Positions 5,449 through 30,822 of a DNA stretch of 34,542 nt are shown here, one piece after another. A program made the translations under genes and the position numbers. The first letter of the stretch is position 1. Each line of letters begins with the position of its first letter. Source of the DNA: a virus; the IMG/VR virus record IMGVR_UViG_3300037285_000062, positions 1-34,542 of that record. One strand, 5' to 3'. The notes beneath the pieces were generated by a model. It saw only the letters and a program-made list of their open reading frames with translations, was not told where the DNA came from and made no database searches.

Positions 5449-8400
5449 ATGGCATTAGTATCACCGGGCGTACAAGTTTCAATCATCGACGAGAGTTTTT
5501 ATACTCCGGCAGAACCAGGCACCACCCCACTAATCTTTATAGCAACAACTGAAAATAAACCAAACCCAGGCGGCACAGGCATTGCACCAGGAACATTAGC
5601 ATCGAACGCCGAAAAAGTTTACTTGATGAGTTCACAAAGAGAACTTTCCGAAACCTTTGGCGACGCGCTGTTTTATACAGATTTAAATAATAATCCAATA
5701 CACGGTGGAGAGCAAAACGAATACGGATTGCAAGCTGCTTATTCCTTCCTTGGTGTATCGAATAGGGCATTTGTAGTTAGAGCAGACATTGATCTTGCAT
5801 CACTTGACGCAAGCGCAGAAGAGACTGCCGGTAAACCAACTAATGGCGCTTATTGGTTTGACACCGATGACACCCTATACGGAATTTTTGAGTGGAACGC
5901 AGCACCTGCAACTGCAACAAATGGACAAAGCTTTTCAAATAAACTTCCAACTACGATCACTGATACAACCAAAGTTGTTGACTTTGCTGGTGCAGACTAT
6001 ACACCAAAAGGCAGTGTTGGCGCAGTTGGCGACTATGCAGTAGTAGCAGTTACAAATATTAATAAGCTTTGGTACAAAGCAACCGATGGTGTCTGGTACA
6101 TTGTTGGATCAACTGGATGGGTTAACAGTATTCCAACTGTAACCGGAACATCTACTGTTACTGTTGCCGATTCTGAAACATTTACAATCGATGACGGCAG
6201 CGGCGCAATAACACTTAACATTGTTGGAACAGTAGTTGCTGACTTTGTTACACAAATCAATGACGAGACCAACGTCAGCGCAGAACTTGTAAACGGCAGA
6301 CTTGTAATTTACGCTGACGGAACAAATGGAAATAGCCTAGTAATTGGCGGAACAGCTTCCACAACTGGCATTGCATCAGCAACTTACACATTGCCAAAAT
6401 TAACAATTGCACCTCACACCGCAGTTCCGCAGTATAAAACTGGTGGCGATGATGTGAGACCAAGTGGTAGTGTGTGGCTAAAAACTACCACTCCTAACTT
6501 GGGCGCAAACTGGAATGTTAAAGTTTACAATTCAGCAACTGGTGTATGGGCAGGCCAAGCCGCTCCAATTTATTCAACAAATCACGCAGCACTATTTGCA
6601 CTTGACCAAACTGGCGGCGGCGCAAATATATCCGAAGGTAGCCTGTACATTCAAAGCAACGTTGCTGAAGATACAGCACCAACAGGGTCTTTTAAGATCT
6701 ATCGCAAGAATAGTACTGGCGCAACATCAATTACTAGTGCCAAGGTTACTACACAGGTAACAACAGCAACCTACACATTTACAATACAAGAAAGTGTAGT
6801 CGGATCGGCTACTTTAACAAATGCAGCAACAGTATCGTTTGATGCAACAGGCGCAACAACCGATGCAGATGTACTAGCAAATGCAATTAACACAGCTGGA
6901 TTAACTCATGTTACGTCAAGTGTTGACAGCCAAAACCGTGTGATAATCAGTCATAATTTAGGTGGCGAAATCCGTCTTGTTGACACCGACGAAGGATTAA
7001 CTAAAATATTTACAGTGTTTGATGCAGACAATTCGGCATCAACAACTAACTTATATCATGTTCCAGGAACAGATGGCTCCACTAGTCCAGTTGAGTACAT
7101 GGTATCACATTGGAAGGTTCTAAACTACACAGCGAGTGTTGGTGAACCAACAACAACTCCAGCAGACGGCGCGTTATGGTATAGCAGCATTGTTGACGAA
7201 GTTGACATGATGTATCACGACGGCACTGCATGGGTCGGCTACGCGAATGCAGTAGCCGCTGCAAGCCCAGGAGGTCCACTTGTGGCTGCATCCGCTCCAC
7301 TTGAGCAATCAGACGGTACTGCATTAGAAGAAGGTGATCTTTGGATTTCCACAGCAGACATTGAAAACTATCCAACAATCTACCGTCGTACTACTGCTGG
7401 CACATGGGACTTGATTGATAAAACTGATCAAACTAGTGAAAACGGTATACTATTTGCAGATGCACGTTATAATACTGCCGGAGCCAATAGTGATGTTGCA
7501 GGCGACATTGTTGAAATGCTAGCAAGCGACTACTTGGATCCAGACGCACCGGATCCTGCACTTTATCCAAGAGGAATGCTACTTTGGAATCTACGCAGAA
7601 GTGGATTTAATGTCAAGCGTTTTGAACGCGACTACATTGATATCAACGGCCTAAACATTAGACTTGCAGACGAATCAATGAATGGCTATGCTCCTAATCG
7701 TTGGGTTACTGAAAGTGCAAATAATGCAGACGGATCAGGAAGCTTTGGCCGCATTGCGCAGCGTAAGGTAATTGTACAAAAACTACAAGCCGTGGTTAAT
7801 AGCAGCGACGATGCACGTGATTCCGAATCACGTAACTTTAACTTGCTTGCGACTCCTGGATACCCAGAACTAATTGGAGAAATGATCAATCTAAACTTTG
7901 ATAGAGGATTAACAGCATTTGTTATTGGTGACAGCCCTCTTAGACTATCGCCAAACACAACTAAACTTAACAACTGGGCAACCAACGTTGACCTTGTAGT
8001 TGAAGATAACGATGCCGGTCTAGTAAGTAGAGATGAATATTTGGGTGTTTACTACCCTGCAGGATTTACAAGTGACAATTCGGGCAACAACATTGTTGTT
8101 CCAGCAAGTCACATGGTACTAAGAACATTTGCGTTAAATGACCAAGTTGCGTATCCATGGTTTGCACCAGCAGGCACAAGACGCGGTGGTGTAACTAATG
8201 CAACAGCAGCTGGATACATCAGCAACGAAGGCGAATTTGTAAGCATTTCATTAAACGAAGGGCAGAGAAACACATTGCAAGCTAGCAATGTCAATCCAAT
8301 TACATTCTTAGGAGGCTCTGGTCTTGTTATATTTGGACAAAAGACCCGCGCAAGAAATTCAAGCTCGTTAGACAGAGTAAATGTAGCTAGATTAGTAATT

Positions 8401-8688
8401 TATCTACGTAGCCAATTAAAGCAACTTTCAAAGCCGTATATCTTTGAACCAAACGACAAGCTTACTCGCAACGAGATCAAACAGGAAGTTGAAAGCTTAA
8501 TGGTTGAATTAGTTAGTTTAAGAGCACTTTACGACTTCTTGGTAGTTTGCGACGAATCAAACAATACACAACCAAGAATTGACAGAGGTGAATTGTACAT
8601 TGACATCGCAATTGAACCAGTTAAAGCTGTGGAATTTATTTATATCCCACTGCGCTTGAAGAACACAGGAGAAATTGCAGGATTATAA
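5449..8688 (+). CDS. gp18: Tail sheath protein gp18, greatly enlarged by inserted modules
   Basis: The N-terminus 'MALVSPGVQVSIIDESFY' with 'GTTPLIFIATTENK' and 'YGLQAAYSFLGVSNRAFVVRADID' is the gp18 start. The C-terminal ~380 residues hold the conserved sheath core ('DYIDINGLNIRLADESMNGY', 'TPGYPELIGEM', 'SHMVLRTFALNDQVAYPWFAPAGTRRGGV', 'GLVIFGQKTRARNSSSLDRVNVARLVIYL', and the C-terminal handshake strand 'IAIEPVKAVEFIYIPLRLKNTGEIAGL'). T4 gp18 has 659 residues and this one has 1079. The extra ~550 residues, roughly 120-670, are a string of short Gly-, Thr- and Trp-rich modules such as G-A-Y-W-F, G-S-V-W-L, G-A-L-W-Y and G-D-L-W-I, each followed by a Y- or W-containing strand. These probably decorate the outside of the sheath. 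AGGAGA precedes the ATG. Confidence 0.97.
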   Translation: MALVSPGVQVSIIDESFYTPAEPGTTPLIFIATTENKPNPGGTGIAPGTLASNAEKVYLMSSQRELSETFGDALFYTDLNNNPIHGGEQNEYGLQAAYSFLGVSNRAFVVRADIDLASLDASAEETAGKPTNGAYWFDTDDTLYGIFEWNAAPATATNGQSFSNKLPTTITDTTKVVDFAGADYTPKGSVGAVGDYAVVAVTNINKLWYKATDGVWYIVGSTGWVNSIPTVTGTSTVTVADSETFTIDDGSGAITLNIVGTVVADFVTQINDETNVSAELVNGRLVIYADGTNGNSLVIGGTASTTGIASATYTLPKLTIAPHTAVPQYKTGGDDVRPSGSVWLKTTTPNLGANWNVKVYNSATGVWAGQAAPIYSTNHAALFALDQTGGGANISEGSLYIQSNVAEDTAPTGSFKIYRKNSTGATSITSAKVTTQVTTATYTFTIQESVVGSATLTNAATVSFDATGATTDADVLANAINTAGLTHVTSSVDSQNRVIISHNLGGEIRLVDTDEGLTKIFTVFDADNSASTTNLYHVPGTDGSTSPVEYMVSHWKVLNYTASVGEPTTTPADGALWYSSIVDEVDMMYHDGTAWVGYANAVAAASPGGPLVAASAPLEQSDGTALEEGDLWISTADIENYPTIYRRTTAGTWDLIDKTDQTSENGILFADARYNTAGANSDVAGDIVEMLASDYLDPDAPDPALYPRGMLLWNLRRSGFNVKRFERDYIDINGLNIRLADESMNGYAPNRWVTESANNADGSGSFGRIAQRKVIVQKLQAVVNSSDDARDSESRNFNLLATPGYPELIGEMINLNFDRGLTAFVIGDSPLRLSPNTTKLNNWATNVDLVVEDNDAGLVSRDEYLGVYYPAGFTSDNSGNNIVVPASHMVLRTFALNDQVAYPWFAPAGTRRGGVTNATAAGYISNEGEFVSISLNEGQRNTLQASNVNPITFLGGSGLVIFGQKTRARNSSSLDRVNVARLVIYLRSQLKQLSKPYIFEPNDKLTRNEIKQEVESLMVELVSLRALYDFLVVCDESNNTQPRIDRGELYIDIAIEPVKAVEFIYIPLRLKNTGEIAGL

Positions 8689-12392: not shown

Positions 12393-13385
12393 ATGGACAA
12401 CAATCAAGATATGAGAAGAATTCTAGCAGGCTTTAATAAGCTTTCGACTAGAAAAAATATGAACGAATCTAGATCAATATACGAATGCCCGCCTGAAATG
12501 CCCAGCGCACCTGCTGATGCAGCAGCCACTGGCCAAATTAGCATAACTGGAGATGTGGGTGCAATTGGTGCAATGTTGTCAAAGCTAGCAAGTATTGAGT
12601 CAAATGGTACTACACGAAACTTGTCAACAGGTGACAATCCTGCAATACCTGGTGTTGACAGCAATCCGTTTGATAGCGACTCCGACGAAGGCATGATGGG
12701 ACAAATGGCAGGCGGGGCGCTGGGTAGTGTTGCTGGGACTGCATTAGGCGGCCCGATTGGCGGTGCAATCGGCAGCGCAGCAGGCGGAGCACTTGGCGAC
12801 AAGATGACAGATGAGTATGCAAATGAACCCGACGAAGAATACCAAGATACTAATTTTATGACCAAGGATCTTGCAGGCGGCCTCAACAGAGAAAAAGGTG
12901 CATATGCAGACGCAGAGGATGGTGACAATCCAATGGCAGTAACAGAAAAGTATACACCTGAGAAGTCCGGTGAGTTCTTTGACGACGATGACAATATAAC
13001 AATTAGATGGATGTACGACGAAGAAGCTGTAGGAGAAATTGAAATAACTGCATACGACGAAAGCGAAAATGAAATTGATCTAGATGACAAGCAAACACGT
13101 CACTATCAAGAAATGATTAGAGACGAAATGCAGCGTAACGCAGATGATTACGGCGATCACAAAATGCACCAACAGCAAGATGACGACGGTGACGCCATGG
13201 AGTCAAGAAAAATGGCTGTTGAAGACATCAAAGCTCGCCTTTACAAAGCTCTTTCAGAAGCAAAACCAGACTTCCTTGATATGGACAAAGATGGCGACAA
13301 AAAAGAGCCAATGAAAAAAGCAATTAAAGATAAAAAAGCCAACCCGTTTGCTAAGAAAACAGATAAGGCTGTAAAGGGAAAGTAA
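12393..13385 (+). CDS. Acidic protein with glycine zipper and a DxDxDG tail motif, function unknown
   Basis: The protein has 330 residues. Residues ~103-137 are a glycine zipper (repeated G-x3-G: 'GGALGSVAGTALGGPIGGAIG'), a type of segment that inserts into or crosses membranes. Residues 150-275 are strongly acidic. The C-terminus is basic and carries 'EAKPDFLDMDKDGDKKEPMK', a D-x-D-x-D-G calcium-loop-like motif. The DNA for this motif recurs almost unchanged in the gene at 16342. A glycine zipper in a late structural block suggests an internal virion protein that could act on the host membrane during DNA entry, but that is a guess. It is tightly packed between its neighbours (gaps of 1-2 bases). 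Confidence 0.6.
   Translation: MDNNQDMRRILAGFNKLSTRKNMNESRSIYECPPEMPSAPADAAATGQISITGDVGAIGAMLSKLASIESNGTTRNLSTGDNPAIPGVDSNPFDSDSDEGMMGQMAGGALGSVAGTALGGPIGGAIGSAAGGALGDKMTDEYANEPDEEYQDTNFMTKDLAGGLNREKGAYADAEDGDNPMAVTEKYTPEKSGEFFDDDDNITIRWMYDEEAVGEIEITAYDESENEIDLDDKQTRHYQEMIRDEMQRNADDYGDHKMHQQQDDDGDAMESRKMAVEDIKARLYKALSEAKPDFLDMDKDGDKKEPMKKAIKDKKANPFAKKTDKAVKGK
13255..13336 (+). repeat. Dispersed 82-bp coding repeat, copy 1
   Basis: By hand alignment about 78 of 82 bases match 17339-17420. It encodes the shared E-A-K-P-D-F-L-D-M-D-K-D-G-D motif and the Lys-rich stretch after it. Of the four differences, three are synonymous and one changes Ile to Val. Confidence 0.85.
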
Positions 13386-13387
13386 CC

Positions 13388-14029
13388 ATGGCACCATCTA
13401 CCTTAGACGGCGTATTAATTAAGAAAGCCAACCGTCAGGAAACATTCACCGAACAACAAATTGAACAACTAGTTGAGTGTATGGATCCTGATGTTGGCTA
13501 TCTTTACTTTGCCAAGATGTTTGCATACATTCAGCACCCTCTTAAGGGAAAGCTGCTGTATGATCCGTATGATTATCAGCTAGGATTGATGCACACGTAT
13601 CACAACTATCGATTCAACATCAATATGATGCCTAGACAAACTGGTAAGACAACTTGTGCAAGTATCTATCTTGCATGGTTTGCAATGTTCAAGCCGGATC
13701 AGACTATCTTGATTGCAGCACACAAATACACAGGTGCACAGGAAATTATGCAGCGTATCCGGTATGTTTACGAATTGTGCCCTGACCACATTAGAGCCGG
13801 AGTAACTAGCTATAATAAAGGCTCGATTGAATTTGAAAACGGTTCGCGCATCATTAGTCAAACAACTACACCTACTACAGGACGTGGTTTGGCTATCTCG
13901 CTACTATACTGTTTAGATGGCGATACAACTACTGTCCGAGTTCGTAATAAGCATACACTTATTGAAGAAGATATAACTCTTCGAGATTTGTATATCAGGA
14001 CACACAACCCTAAAAGAATTATCGGGTGA
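13388..14029 (+). CDS. gp17: Terminase large subunit gp17, N-terminal fragment fused to N-intein
   Basis: This is a 213-residue fragment. Residues 1-174 are the first part of the packaging ATPase: 'YFAKMFAYIQHPLKGKLLYDPYDYQ', Walker A P-R-Q-T-G-K-T-T (82-89), 'ILIAAHKYTGAQEIMQRIRYVYELCPDHI', 'YNKGSIEFENGSRIISQTTTP' and the first part of Walker B, I-S-L-L-Y. At Cys175 the sequence changes to C-L-D-G-D-T-T-T-V, an intein block A, and stops after 39 intein residues. The missing Asp-Glu of Walker B and the nuclease domain are encoded at 14930-16330. This piece alone cannot hydrolyse ATP, so trans-splicing is required. AAGGGA at 13375-13380 precedes the ATG. Confidence 0.93.
   Translation: MAPSTLDGVLIKKANRQETFTEQQIEQLVECMDPDVGYLYFAKMFAYIQHPLKGKLLYDPYDYQLGLMHTYHNYRFNINMMPRQTGKTTCASIYLAWFAMFKPDQTILIAAHKYTGAQEIMQRIRYVYELCPDHIRAGVTSYNKGSIEFENGSRIISQTTTPTTGRGLAISLLYCLDGDTTTVRVRNKHTLIEEDITLRDLYIRTHNPKRIIG
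13910..14026 (+). other. N-intein (IntN), 39 codons, of an atypical split intein
   Basis: It starts with Cys1 (TGT at 13910) in C-L-D-G-D-T, compared with C-V-Y-G-D-T in the AceL-TerL intein as I remember it. It continues with 'IEEDITLRDLY', parallel to 'IKIEDLY' there, and ends at the TGA at 14027. Canonical split inteins have N parts of about 90-120 residues, so this is the rare short-N type. Block B with its T-x-x-H is in the partner half. Confidence 0.88.
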
Positions 14030-14043
14030 TAAGTTTGCATTTG

Positions 14044-14051
14044 TATAAATA
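14044..14051 (+). promoter_or_regulatory. Late promoter TATAAATA abutting the endonuclease start codon
   Basis: This is a perfect octamer between the N-intein stop and the ATG at 14056, with four bases between octamer and ATG. No Shine-Dalgarno is present. It would drive the endonuclease, and the second gp17 fragment behind it, independently of the upstream genes. Confidence 0.6.
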
Positions 14052-14055
14052 CTGC

Positions 14056-14952
14056 ATGGATATAAAAATACAAGCATTTAAGAAACGAAACCAAAAGCGT
14101 AACGCGCATTTGTACGAATCGTCATTACAATCGGGCATAGATTATATATTATGTCCTGTAAGTGACGAACGTCTTAGTATGATCAAGACATCGTACATTG
14201 AGCGAGTGTTACATATGAGCGTGGCAGAGTACGATAGACTGCACCCAGGAGTTCGGGGAGTTAGCAATGCACGAAAAGCAAACATCAAAAAAGGACTTAG
14301 TACAGTTGACTCTGCTACTGGGCTAACTGCTTACGAAACATCGCAAGTTGCTGCCCAACAAACGCTATCTAAGCTAGACGCCGATGGTATTAGTGGATAT
14401 AGTAAAAAAGGCCAAAAAACTAGAGCAACGCATATGAGCAATGTTGACGAGTTCGGCCGTAACGGTTATTCGCAATTAGCAACTCTTGCAATTACTAAAG
14501 GTAACGCAACAAAAGCAGCCAAGGGTCTTATATTAGATCCGGCGCAGCGTAATGAGTTTTATCGGTATAAGTCAGTTGTAACGTATGTCACTGAACAGCA
14601 TAGACTAGCAATAACCTCGGGTTATAAAACTGGACTTGCCGGAGTTGAAGGTGCACATCATATAGACCATATATTTTCTATTATGCAAGGATACAAAAAC
14701 CGTGTTAGTCCGTTGCTTATCGGAAGTATACATAACTTACAAATGCTTCCGTGGAAAGAAAACATATCAAAGCACAGTGCGTGCAGTATTACAATAGATT
14801 TGTTGTTAACTAACGCTAGTTATACTATTAATAAATCATTGTACGAGTTTGACGTATTTGCTAAGATGATTAATACCGACATGCAGCATGCGGCACCTGT
14901 TAGTGGAGCAAGGTTAGTAAAGGAATTCAATGAAACAAATATACGCACCTAA
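14056..14952 (+). CDS. Free-standing HNH-type homing endonuclease inside the split terminase
   Basis: The protein has 298 residues from the ATG at 14056. An upstream GTG at 14026 overlaps the previous stop and is less likely. Residues 31-65 resemble the CPxC..HL..HGMS..EY..P recognition element of phage HNH endonucleases, though the second Cys is replaced ('ILCPVSDERLSMIKTSYIERVLHMSVAEYDRLHP'). Residues 105-140 hold 'LDADGISGYSKKGQK' and 'VDEFGRNGYSQLA'. The HNH core is at ~198-240: 'EGAHHIDHIFS', then 'IHNLQMLPW', then 'KENISKH'. The enzyme should nick or cut an unsplit gp17 allele at the intein site and promote homing. Its end overlaps the start of the C-intein gene by 23 bases. Confidence 0.87.
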   Translation: MDIKIQAFKKRNQKRNAHLYESSLQSGIDYILCPVSDERLSMIKTSYIERVLHMSVAEYDRLHPGVRGVSNARKANIKKGLSTVDSATGLTAYETSQVAAQQTLSKLDADGISGYSKKGQKTRATHMSNVDEFGRNGYSQLATLAITKGNATKAAKGLILDPAQRNEFYRYKSVVTYVTEQHRLAITSGYKTGLAGVEGAHHIDHIFSIMQGYKNRVSPLLIGSIHNLQMLPWKENISKHSACSITIDLLLTNASYTINKSLYEFDVFAKMINTDMQHAAPVSGARLVKEFNETNIRT

Positions 14953-15265
14953 TACAGAATATGAAATATTAACTCCTAACGGGTGGGAAGAATTTGAAGG
15001 TATTTTCTTAAATGAAAATGCAAATAAAGAATCTTGTAAAATAACATTTACCGACGGTACTTTCGTTACTGCAACGTTAGAACACCGGTTTTTTATTAAC
15101 GGTGTAGAAACAAGAGTAAATGATATAATTGTAGGTGACAGGTTAGATTCGCACAATACTATTAAAACTGTGGCAGACCTAACATCTGTAGTTTTAGAAG
15201 ACACTTATGAAATATTTAATGCAGAAAATCATGTAATAATTGCAAATAATATTAACTCTCATCAA
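14930..15265 (+). other. C-intein (IntC), 112 codons, of an atypical split intein
   Basis: It begins 'MKQIYAPNTEYEILTPNGWEE', parallel to the start of AceL-TerL IntC ('ILSPNGF'). It has block B T-L-E-H (49-52), 'VNDIIVGDRL' as the conserved turn before the second half, block F 'YEIFNAENHVIIAN', and ends N-N-I-N-S-H-Q with Cys+1 (TGT at 15266). The C-terminal residue is Gln in place of the usual Asn. Confidence 0.88.
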
Positions 15266-16330
15266 TGTGACGAATTTGCATTTGTGCAACCAAACATTGC
15301 TGAAGAATTTTGGGCATCAATTTCGCCTACACTGGCAACTGGTGGACGCGCAATTATCACAAGCACACCAAACTCAGATGAAGATACATTTGCTACTATT
15401 TGGAAAGATGCCGAAAAGAGATTTGACGAATATGGCGTTGAACAAGAATTAGGCATCAATGGATTCCGTAGTTTTATCTCAGAGTGGCACGAGCATCCGG
15501 ATAGAGACGAAGAGTGGAAAAAAGGCGAGGTTGGCCGTATCGGCGAGGAACGTTTCCGCCGCGAGTATGGCTGCGAGTTCTTGGTATTTGACGAGACGCT
15601 AATACACTCACTTAAACTTGCTACATTAGAAGGAGAAGCGCCTTTATTGAATATGGGCCATACACGATGGTATAAAAGACCAAGTTCAAAATACAGCTAT
15701 GTGGTGTCACTTGATCCTGCTATGGGTACAGGCGGCAACAACGCAGCATTACAAATATATGAAATTCCTACGTATGAACAAGTTGGGGAATGGTGTCACA
15801 ACGAAACCGGAATCCCTGGCCAGGTTCGTGTATTAAAAGATATCTGCCAATATATTGCTGACGAAACCAAGAGCGGCGGCGACAACATATACTGGAGCGT
15901 TGAGAACAATGGATTAGGCGAAGCAGCACTGATTGTAATCAACGATTATGGCGAAGAAAATATACCAGGATTGTTTATCAGTGAGCCTATGAGAAAAGGT
16001 CATGTAAGAAAGTTTCGCAAAGGATTTAACACCACACACGGTGCGAAAATGACCATTTGCGCAAGATTAAAAACAATGATTGAAAACGATCAACTGTTGT
16101 TGCGAAGCAAACCGCTTATATCTGAATTAAAAAATTATGTCAAGTCGAATACCAGTTTTCAAGCAAAGCAAGGACACGGCGACGACTTAGTTAGTTCTAC
16201 ATTACTTGCATTGAGAATGATCACAGTGATCAAAGATTGGGACCCGTCGATATACAATACTTTCATACATCTTGAGCCAGACGAGGATTACGAGCAGCCA
16301 ATGCCCATCTTTGTCAGCAGTAGCTTTTGA
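14930..16330 (+). CDS. gp17: C-intein fused to terminase large subunit gp17, C-terminal fragment
   Basis: The protein has 466 residues. AAGGA at 14920-14924 precedes the ATG. Residues 1-112 are the C-intein. From Cys113 the sequence is terminase: C-D-E-F-A-F (Walker B acidic pair D114-E115), 'GGRAIITSTPNSDED' (coupling motif), then the RNase H-type nuclease with 'VVSLDPAMGTGGNNAAL' (D262), 'WSVENNGLGEAALIVI' (E324) and 'KQGHGDDLVSSTLLAL' (D418/D419). After splicing, 174 + 354 residues give a 528-residue gp17, close to marine relatives and shorter than T4 (610). The spliced junction L-L-Y-C-D-E-F-A-F restores a normal Walker B. Splicing is therefore essential for packaging unless an unsplit copy exists elsewhere. 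Confidence 0.95.
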   Translation: MKQIYAPNTEYEILTPNGWEEFEGIFLNENANKESCKITFTDGTFVTATLEHRFFINGVETRVNDIIVGDRLDSHNTIKTVADLTSVVLEDTYEIFNAENHVIIANNINSHQCDEFAFVQPNIAEEFWASISPTLATGGRAIITSTPNSDEDTFATIWKDAEKRFDEYGVEQELGINGFRSFISEWHEHPDRDEEWKKGEVGRIGEERFRREYGCEFLVFDETLIHSLKLATLEGEAPLLNMGHTRWYKRPSSKYSYVVSLDPAMGTGGNNAALQIYEIPTYEQVGEWCHNETGIPGQVRVLKDICQYIADETKSGGDNIYWSVENNGLGEAALIVINDYGEENIPGLFISEPMRKGHVRKFRKGFNTTHGAKMTICARLKTMIENDQLLLRSKPLISELKNYVKSNTSFQAKQGHGDDLVSSTLLALRMITVIKDWDPSIYNTFIHLEPDEDYEQPMPIFVSSSF

Positions 16331-16336
16331 TAAATA
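16329..16336 (+). promoter_or_regulatory. Late promoter GATAAATA abutting a start codon
   Basis: The octamer overlaps the gp17 stop (TGA) and is followed by ATAGT and the ATG at 16342. This is the same five-base spacing as at 9451, and 17 of 18 bases are shared with that site. No Shine-Dalgarno. Confidence 0.6.
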
Positions 16337-16341
16337 ATAGT

Positions 16342-17799
16342 ATGAAAAACCTAGATCGCATTGGTGCAGAATTATTCAATAAAATTCGAGGACGTTTTCC
16401 TAACGTAACCATTGGCGACGAAGAAGGCAACGTGACAAATGTACCAGAAGAAGCCCGTTATTACGATTTTTCGTATATGAGTAATGGTGAAGAACTTGGC
16501 AAGATTAGCGTAAGTCTTGATGACGATACCGGAGTTTCGGTTATAGTTAGCAAAGACTTAGTAGCAGATCAAGACGAAGATGTGCAGGATGTATGGTATG
16601 ATTTTTTAAGAGAGCTTCGAAGGTTTTCTAAAAAGAGATTAATGCCATTTTCTGTACGTGATATAAACAAAAAACAATTAAACAAAAAAGATTATTACTT
16701 TTTAGCAAAAAATCGTTCTGGAGATGATCAGATGTCTGAATCAAAAATGTATGGTACACTGAATACCAGTTATCAAAAAATAGGTAATGCTAGGTTGGCA
16801 ATCAAGCATTCACAGCCTATTAACGTAGAGAGCGCTAATAGCAGAACTCAAAAAATTAAAGCAATTTATGTTGAATCGCCAGAGGGTGAGAGATTTAAGT
16901 ATCCATTCAAGCACCTAAGCGGTGCCCGTGCAATGGCAATGCATGTTAGCGAAGGCGGCAATGCATATGACGATTTTGGAAAGTATATTTCAGGACTGTC
17001 AGAAGAAGCATCTAAGCTGCGCAAGTTTACCCAATATATTGGCCGAAGTTCGGTTATGGCAGAAACACTAGGCGGCTATAAAGACATTGTCAAAGGCAGA
17101 GTTACTGAAGTTAAAAAAGAAATTATAGGCTTGCAAAAGGCAGCTTATTATCAAGAAGCAATTGCAAAGTTTACTCCGGCATTGATTGAGGATGTTCCGG
17201 ACGAAGTTTCAGAAAACTGGATTGATCAACTTACTATCAAACAATTTAATGAAGAGCTAACTGATATTTTTCCATACATATATCGCTTAGTTGGAGAAGC
17301 AACAAAAGCCAAAGAGTTGTCGTATGACGATCTTGTAGCAGAAGCAAAACCAGACTTCCTTGACATGGACAAAGATGGCGACAAAAAAGAGCCAATGAAA
17401 AAAGCAGTTAAGGATAAGAAGTCCAAGGACGATGTAGCAATCGAAAGCGCGATTGATAGGTTAATGGGACAATGGAGCGAGTCAGATGACGACGACAAAG
17501 TTCCTACTGACGATTCAAACATTAGCGACGAGGAACCTGCAAAAACTCCAATTGGCGAGTTTATTCTTAGTTATTTTGACAGAGAGACTGGAAAATTTCC
17601 AAAAGGCGAAACAGCAGTACTAACTGCTGTACAAAAGGAGTATGGCGATCAGTTTGTAAAACCATCTGTAAAGTTTATACAAAAGGTGGAAAGCGCCAAT
17701 CTTTCCCAACAGCAACAAGACGCACCATCAGTACAAGAACAACCACAAGACACACAGGCACACGACACAGCAAGGCTAAGACACCTATCCGGAATGTAA
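16342..17799 (+). CDS. Probable virion-module protein with DxDxDG motif, function unknown
   Basis: The protein has 485 residues from the ATG at 16342. A TTG five codons earlier would place the promoter inside the gene, so I prefer the ATG. Residues 1-115 form an alpha-beta domain ('LDRIGAELFNKIRGRFPNVTIGDEEGNVTNVPEEARYYDFSY'). Residues 165-325 are rich in helices, with 'HLSGARAMAMHVSEGGNAYDDFGKYISGLSEEASKLRKF'. About residues 333-355 hold 'EAKPDFLDMDKDGDKKEPMK', shared with the 330-residue protein at 12393. A Gln-rich tail ends it. I recall related long proteins near gp17 in marine T4-like phages but no defined role. The late promoter suggests a virion protein. Confidence 0.65.
   Translation: MKNLDRIGAELFNKIRGRFPNVTIGDEEGNVTNVPEEARYYDFSYMSNGEELGKISVSLDDDTGVSVIVSKDLVADQDEDVQDVWYDFLRELRRFSKKRLMPFSVRDINKKQLNKKDYYFLAKNRSGDDQMSESKMYGTLNTSYQKIGNARLAIKHSQPINVESANSRTQKIKAIYVESPEGERFKYPFKHLSGARAMAMHVSEGGNAYDDFGKYISGLSEEASKLRKFTQYIGRSSVMAETLGGYKDIVKGRVTEVKKEIIGLQKAAYYQEAIAKFTPALIEDVPDEVSENWIDQLTIKQFNEELTDIFPYIYRLVGEATKAKELSYDDLVAEAKPDFLDMDKDGDKKEPMKKAVKDKKSKDDVAIESAIDRLMGQWSESDDDDKVPTDDSNISDEEPAKTPIGEFILSYFDRETGKFPKGETAVLTAVQKEYGDQFVKPSVKFIQKVESANLSQQQQDAPSVQEQPQDTQAHDTARLRHLSGM
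17339..17420 (+). repeat. Dispersed 82-bp coding repeat, copy 2
   Basis: This is the partner of 13255-13336, exactly 4084 bases downstream and in the same orientation. It is internal to the 485-residue protein, whereas copy 1 is near the C-terminus of its protein. Confidence 0.85.
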
Positions 17800-28250: not shown

Positions 28251-29708
28251 ATGAGTTTATGTAAATTAATAATCGAAGACGAAGTAAATATAAAATTTGA
28301 AGGATTATCAGTAGACGTACGGAGACAACTTTCCAACGCATTAAAATTTGAAGTACCGTATGCAAAGCATATGCCGCAATTTAAATTAGGTCGCTGGGAC
28401 GGCAAGGTCGGCTTTTTTGGCATAGGTGGCGCAGGATATCTAAGCCATTTAGACGTATTATTGCCAATACTTGAAAAGAATAAGATAAACATTTCAGAGA
28501 TTGTTGACAAGAGAACAGCGATTGAATTAAATTTTCAAACCATTGATGCCAACTACTGGGGCACCACAGTTTGGCCAAAAGGTCATCCTGCCGAAGGCGA
28601 CCCTATTATACTGCGAGACTATCAAGTCGAAGCAATCAACAACTTTATACAAAATCCGCAAAGCTTGCAGCAAATTGCAACCGGTGCAGGCAAAACAATT
28701 ATCACAGCAACATTATCCAAGATGTGCGAAGTGTTTGGCAGGAGTTTGATTATTGTTCCTAACAAAAGTCTAGTTGAGCAAACAGAAGAAGATTATATCA
28801 ACTGTGGATTAGATGTAGGCGTTTACTTTGGAGACAGAAAAGAACTAGGTAAGACACACACCATCTGTACTTGGCAAAGTCTCAACATACTCAACAAGCG
28901 CAACAAAGAAGGACTTTCGGTTCTCAGCTTGGCAGAATTTTTAGAAGGTGTAATGACTGTTATCGTTGACGAAGTACATCAAGCCAAGGCAGATGTACTA
29001 AAGAATATTTTGACACAAAACTTAAAGAATGCGCCAATTCGCTGGGGTCTAACAGGAACTGTTCCTAAAGAAGCCTTTGAATTTCAAAGCATACTTGCAA
29101 GTCTTGGACCTGTTGTAGGCAACGTAACAGCAAAAGAACTACAGGACAAGGGCGTATTGTCAAACTGTCATGTTAATATATGTCAGTTGATGGATGTCAA
29201 AGCATTTACAAATTATCAAGAAGAACTCAAGTATCTTGTGTCGGACGAAGCACGCCTTGAATATCTTGGTAAGCTAATGATTAAGATAAAAAGTTCAGGA
29301 AATACATTAATTCTAGTTGATCGAATTGCAGCTGGACAAAAACTACAAGAACTAATTCCGGGTTCTATCTTTATTAACGGCGCGGTTAAAACAAAGAACA
29401 GAAAAGAAACTTACGACAAAGTACAAGATGCTACTGATATGGTAATTATTGCAACATATGGTGTTGCAGCAGTTGGTATTAATATTCCGCGAATCTTTAA
29501 TTTGGTGCTTTTCGAACCTGGCAAGAGTTTTGTTAGAGTTATCCAGTCAATCGGCAGGGGCGTAAGAAAAGCAAAGGACAAAGACTTTGTCCAAATATGG
29601 GACATTACCAGCACATGTAAGTTTGCCAAACGGCACCTCACTGCTCGTAAGAAATTTTACGCCGAAGCTGAATACCCATTTACAATAGAAAAAATAGATT
29701 GGAATTAA
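28251..29708 (+). CDS. uvsW: UvsW ATP-dependent helicase
   Basis: The protein has 485 residues. The UvsW N-terminal domain includes 'FKLGRWDGKVGFFGIGGAGYLSHLDVLLPILEK'. SF2 helicase motifs follow: 'LRDYQVEAINNF' (Q-type), A-T-G-A-G-K-T (143-149), 'LIIVPNKSLVEQ' (Ia), D-E-V-H (240-243), 'GLTGTV' (III), 'LILVDRIAAGQKLQELI' (IV), and 'RVIQSIGRGVRKAKDK' (VI). UvsW unwinds R-loops and branched DNA and switches T4 from origin- to recombination-dependent replication. The length matches T4 UvsW (about 500). Its last codons (I-D-W-N-stop) are duplicated 600 bases downstream, which marks the next gene as an insertion. No clear Shine-Dalgarno is seen. Confidence 0.96.
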   Translation: MSLCKLIIEDEVNIKFEGLSVDVRRQLSNALKFEVPYAKHMPQFKLGRWDGKVGFFGIGGAGYLSHLDVLLPILEKNKINISEIVDKRTAIELNFQTIDANYWGTTVWPKGHPAEGDPIILRDYQVEAINNFIQNPQSLQQIATGAGKTIITATLSKMCEVFGRSLIIVPNKSLVEQTEEDYINCGLDVGVYFGDRKELGKTHTICTWQSLNILNKRNKEGLSVLSLAEFLEGVMTVIVDEVHQAKADVLKNILTQNLKNAPIRWGLTGTVPKEAFEFQSILASLGPVVGNVTAKELQDKGVLSNCHVNICQLMDVKAFTNYQEELKYLVSDEARLEYLGKLMIKIKSSGNTLILVDRIAAGQKLQELIPGSIFINGAVKTKNRKETYDKVQDATDMVIIATYGVAAVGINIPRIFNLVLFEPGKSFVRVIQSIGRGVRKAKDKDFVQIWDITSTCKFAKRHLTARKKFYAEAEYPFTIEKIDWN

Positions 29709-29709
29709 A
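29694..29709 (+). repeat. 16-bp direct repeat, left copy (uvsW 3' end)
   Basis: ATAGATTGGAATTAAA encodes the UvsW end I-D-W-N-stop. An identical copy lies exactly 600 bases downstream (30294-30309), so the two bracket the stand-alone terminase-type ATPase gene. Confidence 0.85.
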
Positions 29710-29710
29710 A

Positions 29711-30286
29711 ATGAATACAACATTAGATAATGCACGCGAACTAGTAAAGTGTGCAAGCGACATTGAATATTTTGCAGAGAAATATATCAGAGTTGACCAT
29801 CCTATCAACGGAAGAATGACTCTTGTGCTCAGAGCTGAGCAGAAAGAGATGATTAAAAAGTACCAAGATAACAAATCATTTCTAGGAGCGTACAGACGCC
29901 AGTGCGGTAAATCCACTGTTGGATATGTTATAATGTTGCATAATATTTTGTTTGGCGATATTGCCAATCACTTGATATTAAGCCGAAACTCGCGCTCCAC
30001 AATAGAGAACGTTTTTCTTATGCATAATCACCTACCCGAGTTTCTAAGAAGTATAGCAGACATAACAGTGCGCAGCAACCATTCGATACACTTTTCTAAC
30101 GGCTCTACAATTGATGCCACAAAACGGCCAGACAATGACACTCCTTATTCTACAGTTTACGTTGATGAAGCCGGCTTTTTTGATGAAAAAACAACAGAGG
30201 CTGGAGAAAGCATTAAAAACAACGTAGGGATTACCAAATTCTTTTGTCTAACAAGCACTAGATTAAACGAATTGTTTGGCTATTAA
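29711..30286 (+). CDS. Stand-alone gp17-type terminase ATPase domain
   Basis: The protein has 191 residues from the ATG at 29711. A TTG at 29699 lies inside uvsW. The order of motifs follows the N-terminal ATPase of gp17: 'FAEKYIRVDHPINGRMTLVLRAEQKEMI', Walker A R-R-Q-C-G-K-S-T (62-69), 'ANHLILSRNSRSTIENVFLMHNHLPEFLRS', 'SNHSIHFSNGSTIDATKRP', Walker B 'TVYVDEAGFFDE' (D152-E153) and coupling motif 'FFCLTSTRLN'. It then stops, with no nuclease domain. All ATPase residues look intact, so it may be an active NTPase. It is not interrupted by an intein. It is bracketed by a 16-bp direct repeat. The role is unknown. Options include a packaging regulator, a recombination motor partner of UvsW, or a decaying duplicate. 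Confidence 0.75.
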   Translation: MNTTLDNARELVKCASDIEYFAEKYIRVDHPINGRMTLVLRAEQKEMIKKYQDNKSFLGAYRRQCGKSTVGYVIMLHNILFGDIANHLILSRNSRSTIENVFLMHNHLPEFLRSIADITVRSNHSIHFSNGSTIDATKRPDNDTPYSTVYVDEAGFFDEKTTEAGESIKNNVGITKFFCLTSTRLNELFGY

Positions 30287-30293
30287 GAATTAT

Positions 30294-30309
30294 ATAGATT
30301 GGAATTAAA
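30294..30309 (+). repeat. 16-bp direct repeat, right copy
   Basis: This is identical to 29694-29709 and lies in the short gap before the gene at 30316. It reads as a leftover uvsW tail (I-D-W-N-stop) that no longer belongs to any gene. Confidence 0.85.
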
Positions 30310-30315
30310 TTAAAA

Positions 30316-30822
30316 ATGAGAATACTAACACTAGAAAACGAAACGTTTATACTTAATCAATTGCCAGAATCAGTTGACGAAGCATTACGATTTGCAGTGC
30401 TCGATAACAGTAATCCAGCAGATCCGGATTTCTTTTTCAATCCATTGATATTTCTAGAAAGTTTCAACAGCCCTGCTATTGTACTAGAAATAAACGGCAA
30501 CGAGATCACAATGCCGCTAGACTGGTGTCTAGCAGTAGGGTGCAGCGAAGCAGGCAGCGACTTAGAGGTATTACCTTTAACCAGCTTAAACGATAGGGGA
30601 TTTGAAGCATTTGTATTTAATCCCCTAACAGGAACACATCCACAATACGCAAAAGTAGAGATAATAAATTTCTACAATGACGTCAAGTGGTATTTTCCAA
30701 AAATGAGAAATGGCCAATTGTTAGCAGTTCCTCTCAAGGATGAACCAAATACAAATTGCGCATTTTTTGTAAAAGACATAAGTCGCCAATGCGAAATCAT
30801 CGACTTTGGCAAATTATTATAA
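30316..30822 (+). CDS. Conserved protein of unknown function
   Basis: The protein has 168 residues and is beta-rich by eye: 'AIVLEINGNEITMPLDWCLAVGCSEAGSDLEVLPLTSLNDRGFEAFVFNPLTG', 'KVEIINFYNDVKWYFPKMRNGQLLAVPL' and 'NTNCAFFVKDISRQCEIIDFGKLL'. I recall this 'LDW...PLTSLNDRGFEAF...NPL' pattern from marine T4-like phages, without an assigned role. It probably followed uvsW directly before the ATPase gene was inserted. No clear Shine-Dalgarno lies before the ATG, which follows an A-rich stretch. Confidence 0.6.
   Translation: MRILTLENETFILNQLPESVDEALRFAVLDNSNPADPDFFFNPLIFLESFNSPAIVLEINGNEITMPLDWCLAVGCSEAGSDLEVLPLTSLNDRGFEAFVFNPLTGTHPQYAKVEIINFYNDVKWYFPKMRNGQLLAVPLKDEPNTNCAFFVKDISRQCEIIDFGKLL

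Follow-up and report, generated by a model that had tools for sequence, protein, structure and literature searches.

The locus analysed here raises the question of why a virus with a large terminase of its own should carry a second gene for the ATPase of that enzyme, placed beside the helicase gene uvsW. The T4-like packaging motor is usually pictured as a single large-terminase protein, arranged as a pentamer, plus a small regulator. The window, i.e., the whole stretch of DNA under analysis (34,542 nucleotides; IMG/VR record IMGVR_UViG_3300037285_000062), is a metagenomic record, 34.5 kb long, of a virus resembling jumbo phages, and the gene in question (positions 29711 to 30286, plus strand) is an intact open reading frame with an ATG start, 191 codons, and a TAA stop. 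Based on this reading frame, profile searches, a PDB match, and a structural model, its product was classified as a stand-alone ATPase of the gp17 NsubI type and is henceforth called mini-TerL. The original prediction had placed a second gp17-type motor domain in the same genome; a second gp17 is indeed found in the window, with "same genome" to be read as the same contig.

The relationship to gp17, which had been proposed motif by motif from the letters alone, was confirmed by profiles and structure. Mini-TerL matched Pfam PF03237 (Terminase_6N, T4-type; E 1.2e-6, 28.8 bits at a curated cut-off of 22) and the PHROG large terminase subunit phrog_5989 (E 1.4e-25), and was matched to T4 gp17 in the PDB search (E 5.7e-11). 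The predicted structure (pLDDT 85.7, pTM 0.84), for which six window and metagenome relatives were drawn on, was superposed on gp17 residues 100–300 with a Z of 21.2 and an rmsd of 2.4 over 189 aligned residues. Other terminases followed at Z 12–19, and the top non-terminase was T4 UvsW (Z 12.9). No P-loop family outside the terminases thus gave a better match, and an identity as SF2 helicase was unsupported, with no helicase Pfam model matching mini-TerL.

Every residue of the gp17 ATP site has a counterpart in mini-TerL, i.e., Q44, R63, G66-K67-S68, D152-E153, and T181-S182-T183. By alignment, Q44 (29840–29842, plus strand, as are all following motifs) corresponds to the adenine-contacting Gln of gp17, and is present in 100% of the gp17s and in 8/9 stand-alone proteins, i.e., mini-TerL and its relatives described below. 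Walker A (YRRQCGKST, residues 61–69, 29891–29917) carries R63 at the arginine-finger position, Walker B (TVYVDE, residues 148–153, 30152–30169) ends in D152 and the catalytic E153, and motif III, the coupling motif, was located at T181-S182-T183 (30251–30259) from the sequence and the alignment of the stand-alone proteins. The NsubI core of a T4-type large terminase (Walker A, arginine finger, Walker B, catalytic Glu, motif III) is hence complete.

As predicted, the protein ends right after the coupling motif, eight residues past motif III, and the C-terminal RNase H-like nuclease is absent, the reading frame stopping at 30286 and Terminase_6C remaining unmatched in mini-TerL. The NsubII "transmission" subdomain and the hinge are missing as well, with the model spanning gp17 100–300 only; the earlier term "motor domain" is therefore right for the gp17-type ATPase core, but not for a whole motor domain. 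In gp17, NsubI acts as engine, NsubII as transmission, and the C-domain as wheel (PMC9958956); in these terms mini-TerL is, judging from its sequence and model, an engine without transmission and without nuclease wheel. With neither NsubII nor a nuclease domain, it has no means of translocating DNA in the manner of gp17. NsubII contributes part of the ATP cleft in gp17 (PMC9958956), and hydrolysis of ATP by NsubI alone, as in mini-TerL, is a presumption.

The actual gp17 of the virus (13388–16330) lies elsewhere in the window, in line with the prediction of a separate and intein-free second gene, and a split intein interrupts it immediately ahead of Walker B. Its N-part (13388–14029, plus strand) comprises 174 aa up to Walker B and a very short IntN of about 39 aa, and its C-part (14930–16330, plus strand; phrog_36964 2e-78, Terminase_6C just below cut-off) consists of about 112 aa of IntC followed by Walker B, motif III, and the nuclease domain. 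A free-standing homing-endonuclease-like reading frame lies between the two halves (14026–14952, plus strand; phrog_5104 3e-18, endonuclease VII phrog_1035 9e-4). The gp17 of relatives of this phage is unsplit, and the split intein may resemble the atypically split AceL-TerL intein. The possibility that mini-TerL is itself half of an intein-split gp17 was excluded, since its sequence is free of intein and continues through Walker B and motif III.

Fractured gp17 genes were also observed in two other records. On the L013 contig (L298, 7182–10306), the gp17 beside the stand-alone ATPase gene is itself broken at Walker B, and its N-half is fused to a GIY-YIG-like reading frame, and in Escherichia phage PD112 (Tequatrovirus, a close relative of T4; L299, 115–2706) gp17 is distributed over reading frames of 210 and 461 aa with a 199-aa reading frame between them. 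In the window, the genes flanking the gp17 block (12393–13385 and 16327–17799) share a near-identical stretch, AKPDFLDMDKDGDKKEPMKKA[IV]KDKK, with an EF-hand-like loop, and the tail sheath protein (5449–8688) is very long (1079 aa vs. 915 positions in the profile phrog_10581).

The position of mini-TerL was resolved by comparison with related genomes. Its left neighbour is uvsW (28251–29708, plus strand) and its right neighbour a 168-aa gene of phrog_11279 (30316–30822, plus strand), which in most relatives comes immediately after uvsW. Some 160 relatives lack mini-TerL, and their uvsW and phrog_11279 genes are mostly 2–40 nt apart. As had been stated, the gene is outside the T4 plan; in the T4-like relatives of the window, the neighbour of uvsW is the phrog_11279 gene. 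A single copy is known at this site, in one contig, among records from which very near relatives of the window may be missing. That mini-TerL lies next to uvsW is true of the window, but what adjoins uvsW there is an accessory insert. The closest relatives, L173 and L174, have an empty site and 95.5–96% nucleotide identity on both flanks. The insert is bordered by a 16-bp direct repeat, ATAGATTGGAATTAAA, on the plus strand, of which the left copy (29694–29709) is the end of uvsW and supplies a GGA 7 nt before the mini-TerL ATG, and the right copy (30294–30309) corresponds to the original uvsW/phrog_11279 junction as found in the empty sites. Other genomes hold other cargo at this position, namely an FkbM-type methyltransferase (L126), a carbon-nitrogen hydrolase (L157, L158, L160, L162, and L163; Pfam match run on L158), a 2OG-Fe(II) oxygenase (L166, L167, and L170; match run on L166), unknown proteins, and a 590-aa endonuclease-like gene (L194). 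In the last case, 17 bp of the uvsW tail are duplicated on both sides of the insert, a signature like that of the insert in the window. By these comparisons, mini-TerL is a cargo insertion in a slot at the uvsW/phrog_11279 junction (29709–30316). With one contig to go by, an assembly artefact is conceivable; against it, the insert is gene-exact, and the same syntenic genes continue on both flanks. The codon use of mini-TerL is native (z −1.0) and gives no foreign signal, so composition does not date the insertion. By UvsW, the nearest named phages are the jumbo phages Phosso, Atu_ph07, and the PA5oct group. In L174 (2331–3651; also in L173), uvsW is interrupted at its DE box by an intein-like sequence (CLDGDTLITT...) with an endonuclease-like reading frame inside; the uvsW of the window is uninterrupted, unlike that of this closest relative.

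Adjacency to uvsW, together with the SF2-like fold similarity seen in the UvsW match (Z 12.9), could be taken to indicate a subunit of another DNA- or RNA-translocating machine, e.g., one acting with UvsW or a recombination complex. This is very improbable, since the site is a cargo slot with unrelated genes, all relatives of mini-TerL adjoin the terminase and not uvsW, and gp17 is a far better match (Z 21). The slot, and not a function of UvsW, explains the position of the gene, whose link to UvsW is probably accidental.

Further stand-alone reading frames of similar content and end point (194–213 aa) were found in IMG/VR and phage records (L002, which equals L003 and L004, L013, L014, L028, L312, and L313), and likewise in the Sinorhizobium phages phiN3, phiM12, phiM7, and phiM19. 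Mini-TerL shares the features of this family, i.e., a single reading frame of about 190–215 aa that ends shortly after motif III and keeps R, GK, and DE. In all relatives examined, the gene lies directly upstream of gp17 on the same strand, and in L002/L310, L312, L313, L014, phiN3, and phiM12 its stop mostly overlaps or abuts the gp17 start, with ATGA-type overlaps in, e.g., L002, L014, L312, L313, and phiM12; in L013 and L028 the two genes are 0–8 bases apart. Profiles identify the preceding gene as gp16 in L002 and L013, annotation does so in phiN3 and phiM12, and for L312 and L313 the identification comes from comparison with L002 and L013. The order gp16-mini-gp17 was thereby established for L002, L013, L312, L313, phiN3, and phiM12, and for L014 and L028 the small gene was placed just before gp17. 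The window copy sits between uvsW and phrog_11279, not between gp16 and gp17. Second gp17 copies are rare in named phage records (2526 places in 2505 records with the phiN3 protein as query). The 20 jumbo-like IMG/VR records with gp17 (up to 383 kb, several of them fragments) have one unsplit gp17 each and no stand-alone protein, and no relative of mini-TerL was found in the bacterial and archaeal genomes searched. Weak extra hits in G032 and G033 were rejected as PhoH-like ATPases, and a 228-aa reading frame in L005/L315 was left out as most likely a frameshifted full gp17 (L006 is near-identical and full length). Mini-TerL was matched by no defence-system model, and no RNA families or tRNAs were found in the window. 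The phiM12 record calls its copy gp17.2; this name exists in GenBank, and no description or function of gp17.2-like proteins was found in the open-access papers searched. What is new here, on the basis of these comparisons, is that mini-TerL is no stray fragment, as comparable stand-alone proteins stand directly before gp17 in several phages.

The original prediction had left a duplicate and a foreign origin side by side, and the phylogeny that it proposed decided towards the foreign one. In a maximum-likelihood tree of 49 sequences, comprising stand-alone proteins and gp17s on long branches, the stand-alone proteins required 2 label changes vs. 8.4 in shuffles. Mini-TerL was placed inside a group of six stand-alone proteins (support 100/98) and then of eight (97/84), and the gp17 of the window grouped with the gp17s of jumbo-phage relatives (support 100). 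A recent duplication of the virus's own gp17 was rejected in AU tests (p 0.026 in the first tree, 0.011 in the larger tree); the first tree was compatible with mini-TerL joining the broader gp17 clade of jumbo phages (p 0.29). On this phylogenetic evidence, mini-TerL is foreign relative to the gp17 of its virus and was horizontally acquired. A single origin of all nine stand-alone proteins was not rejected in a constraint test, and one common origin for all of them is possible.

Across the stand-alone proteins, Y20, F21, G34, L40, R63, G66, K67, D152, and E153 are identical in 9/9, while outside the ATP site many gp17-invariant residues are gone. The RG loop is missing from mini-TerL and its Gly is kept in 8/8 other stand-alone proteins, which makes mini-TerL the most divergent of its subgroup. 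Selection was measured on two pairs of relatives, phiN3/phiM12 and L002/L312, and the figures apply to these pairs. Between phiN3 and phiM12, protein identity is 100% for gp15 and gp16, 99.1% for gp17, and 82.5% for the stand-alone protein (dN 0.10, dS 0.47, dN/dS 0.21; gp17 dN 0.005, dS 0.10). The raised dS of the small gene suggests gene exchange by recombination. At the nucleotide level, the gp15–gp17 region of these phages (L012, L300) looks like it contains a recombination island, with 84.9% identity for the small gene and 97.5–98.9% for its neighbours. Between L002 and L312, dS is similar for the two genes (0.82 and 1.00), and dN is 0.283 for the stand-alone gene (dN/dS 0.35) and 0.048 for gp17. 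The amino-acid change (dN) of the stand-alone proteins is thus about 6–20 times that of the adjoining gp17. At dN/dS of 0.2–0.35, they are nevertheless selected as proteins despite their fast change, and judged by sequence they form what looks like a small family of motor look-alikes that changes fast.

These figures bear on the proposal that mini-TerL is a relic, i.e., a decaying fragment of a foreign terminase that was brought in with the insertion. The single copy at the site in one contig, the missing RG loop, and the long branch are all consistent with decay. Yet the frame is open, with a start codon, a Shine-Dalgarno-like GGA, and native codon use, all catalytic residues are kept at about 30% identity, and the same truncated form occurs in other lineages under purifying selection, so that a relic is improbable. 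Of the earlier wording "relic of a foreign terminase", the foreign origin held; for the family, relic did not, in view of the several independent genomes with this truncated form, the intact catalytic residues, and dN/dS values well below 1.

Comparative sequence analysis establishes the intact catalytic set, the family, its gp16-mini-gp17 linkage elsewhere, and the selection acting on it, and the fold is established as a model. What the protein does is more tentative. The favoured reading, to which we give slightly less than even confidence, is that mini-TerL is a single-subdomain paralogue of the T4-type TerL, from a family presumably co-expressed between gp16 and gp17 elsewhere, that mimics the engine and modulates the terminase. 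Mini-TerL would bind and probably hydrolyse ATP; unable to move DNA itself, it would act through its resemblance to the gp17 ATPase. It may engage partners of gp17 (gp16, neighbours in the gp17 ring, DNA, or the portal), competing with gp17 or working beside it, and DNA is also bound by the ATPase domain of gp17 (PMC3012670). The outcome would be a tuning of when packaging starts or stops, or of how fast it runs. In the phage of the window, the gene would be accessory, dispensable, and horizontally acquired, with its expression supplied by read-through from uvsW and a ribosome site of its own. Competition with or modulation of the packaging motor, one of the roles originally suggested, fits the gp16-mini-gp17 order of the other phages. 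Counted against modulation is that the window copy lies away from gp16 and gp17, co-expression with the motor being predicted from gene order elsewhere only. The missing RG loop and the share of NsubII in the ATP cleft of gp17 weigh against it as well.

A dN 6–20 times that of gp17 would moreover be unusual for a ring subunit and is a better fit to a role in conflict. Fast evolution and mobility keep two such roles open, namely decoys for Avs systems and interference with rival phages. More generally, mini-TerL could be a mobile, engine-only TerL mimic that occupies TerL-sensing host sensors or rival motors while the virus's own terminase is working, which we consider rather unlikely. Avs1–Avs4 recognise the large terminase subunit or the portal (PMC12931631), and an Avs3-terminase complex (8dgc, Z 16.7) was among the fold matches of the mini-TerL model. 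As a counter-defence decoy, mini-TerL would mimic the ATPase face of TerL and occupy the TerL-sensing Avs/AVAST STAND NTPases while presenting no nuclease part, whereby these sensors would stay silent. The rapid amino-acid change around a fixed ATP site in an otherwise almost invariant operon, and the accessory, horizontally moved nature of the gene, would suit such a decoy, as would the interval between the small and large terminase genes, where other phages are known to place genes for defence and counter-defence (Tab/anti-Tab, PMC10884400). A decoy would not need to keep the residues for hydrolysis, however, and binding of Avs by the ATPase subdomain alone is an assumption of this explanation, which is likewise given only a minor chance. 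Alternatively, mini-TerL might be a weapon against a T4-like phage infecting the same cell, whose motor it would poison by entering the gp17 ring or tying up gp16. The foreignness of mini-TerL to the resident gp17, its accessory slot, and its fast evolution are in keeping with this. Elsewhere, though, gene order predicts expression of the protein together with a close relative of the would-be target, so that the resident motor would have to be spared; we rate this explanation as improbable.

Under the favoured modulator reading, a recurrent, selected engine-only protein encoded alongside the terminase genes of several phages prompts the question whether a second ATPase is built into, or controls, some motors. 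Mini-TerL also offers a natural separation-of-function protein for the coupling of ATP firing to DNA movement. If the decoy explanation were true, it would represent a countermeasure to terminase-sensing immunity by a truncated-paralogue decoy strategy. Since phiM12, phiN3, phiM7, and phiM19 are isolated carriers, both the motor and the decoy question are testable now.

Among known systems, mini-TerL shares the NsubI fold (residues 100–300) and the full motif set with the ATPase domain of T4 gp17/TerL (PDB 2o0h, 2o0j, 3cpe; PF03237), and differs from it by the lack of NsubII and the RNase H nuclease, by an identity of about 25%, and by being a gene of its own beside uvsW. With the N-halves of intein-fractured gp17s (window 13388–14029; Tequatrovirus PD112) it has in common a short reading frame with the gp17 Walker A region, but the N-half in the window stops in IntN before Walker B and needs its C-half, whereas mini-TerL extends through Walker B and motif III and is free of intein sequence. 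The theme has taken another course in the related jumbo phages Phosso (PV764938.1, 249808–250653, 281 aa) and Atu_ph07 (MF403008.1, 439917–440651, 244 aa), which have a second gp17-like protein without nuclease; unlike mini-TerL, these proteins have lost the Walker A Lys and the catalytic Glu, keep a stretch resembling the start of NsubII, and are longer. The Atu_ph07 protein gave a weak match only (phrog_5989, 6e-4). The Phosso protein is annotated as "terminase small subunit"; its profiles match the large subunit, and the annotation is probably wrong. Also related to mini-TerL are the gp17.2 proteins of phiM12, phiN3, phiM7, and phiM19 (Emdodecavirus), which are likewise NsubI units (194–196 aa) with intact motifs that end at motif III, but are encoded between gp16 and gp17 and are more distant in the tree than the proteins of L002, L013, L312, and L313. 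The latter four resemble mini-TerL in size (199–204 aa), end point, identity (about 30%), and their supported common group, with a TSTR motif III common to mini-TerL, L002, and L312; they adjoin gp16 and gp17, and mini-TerL occupies the uvsW slot instead.
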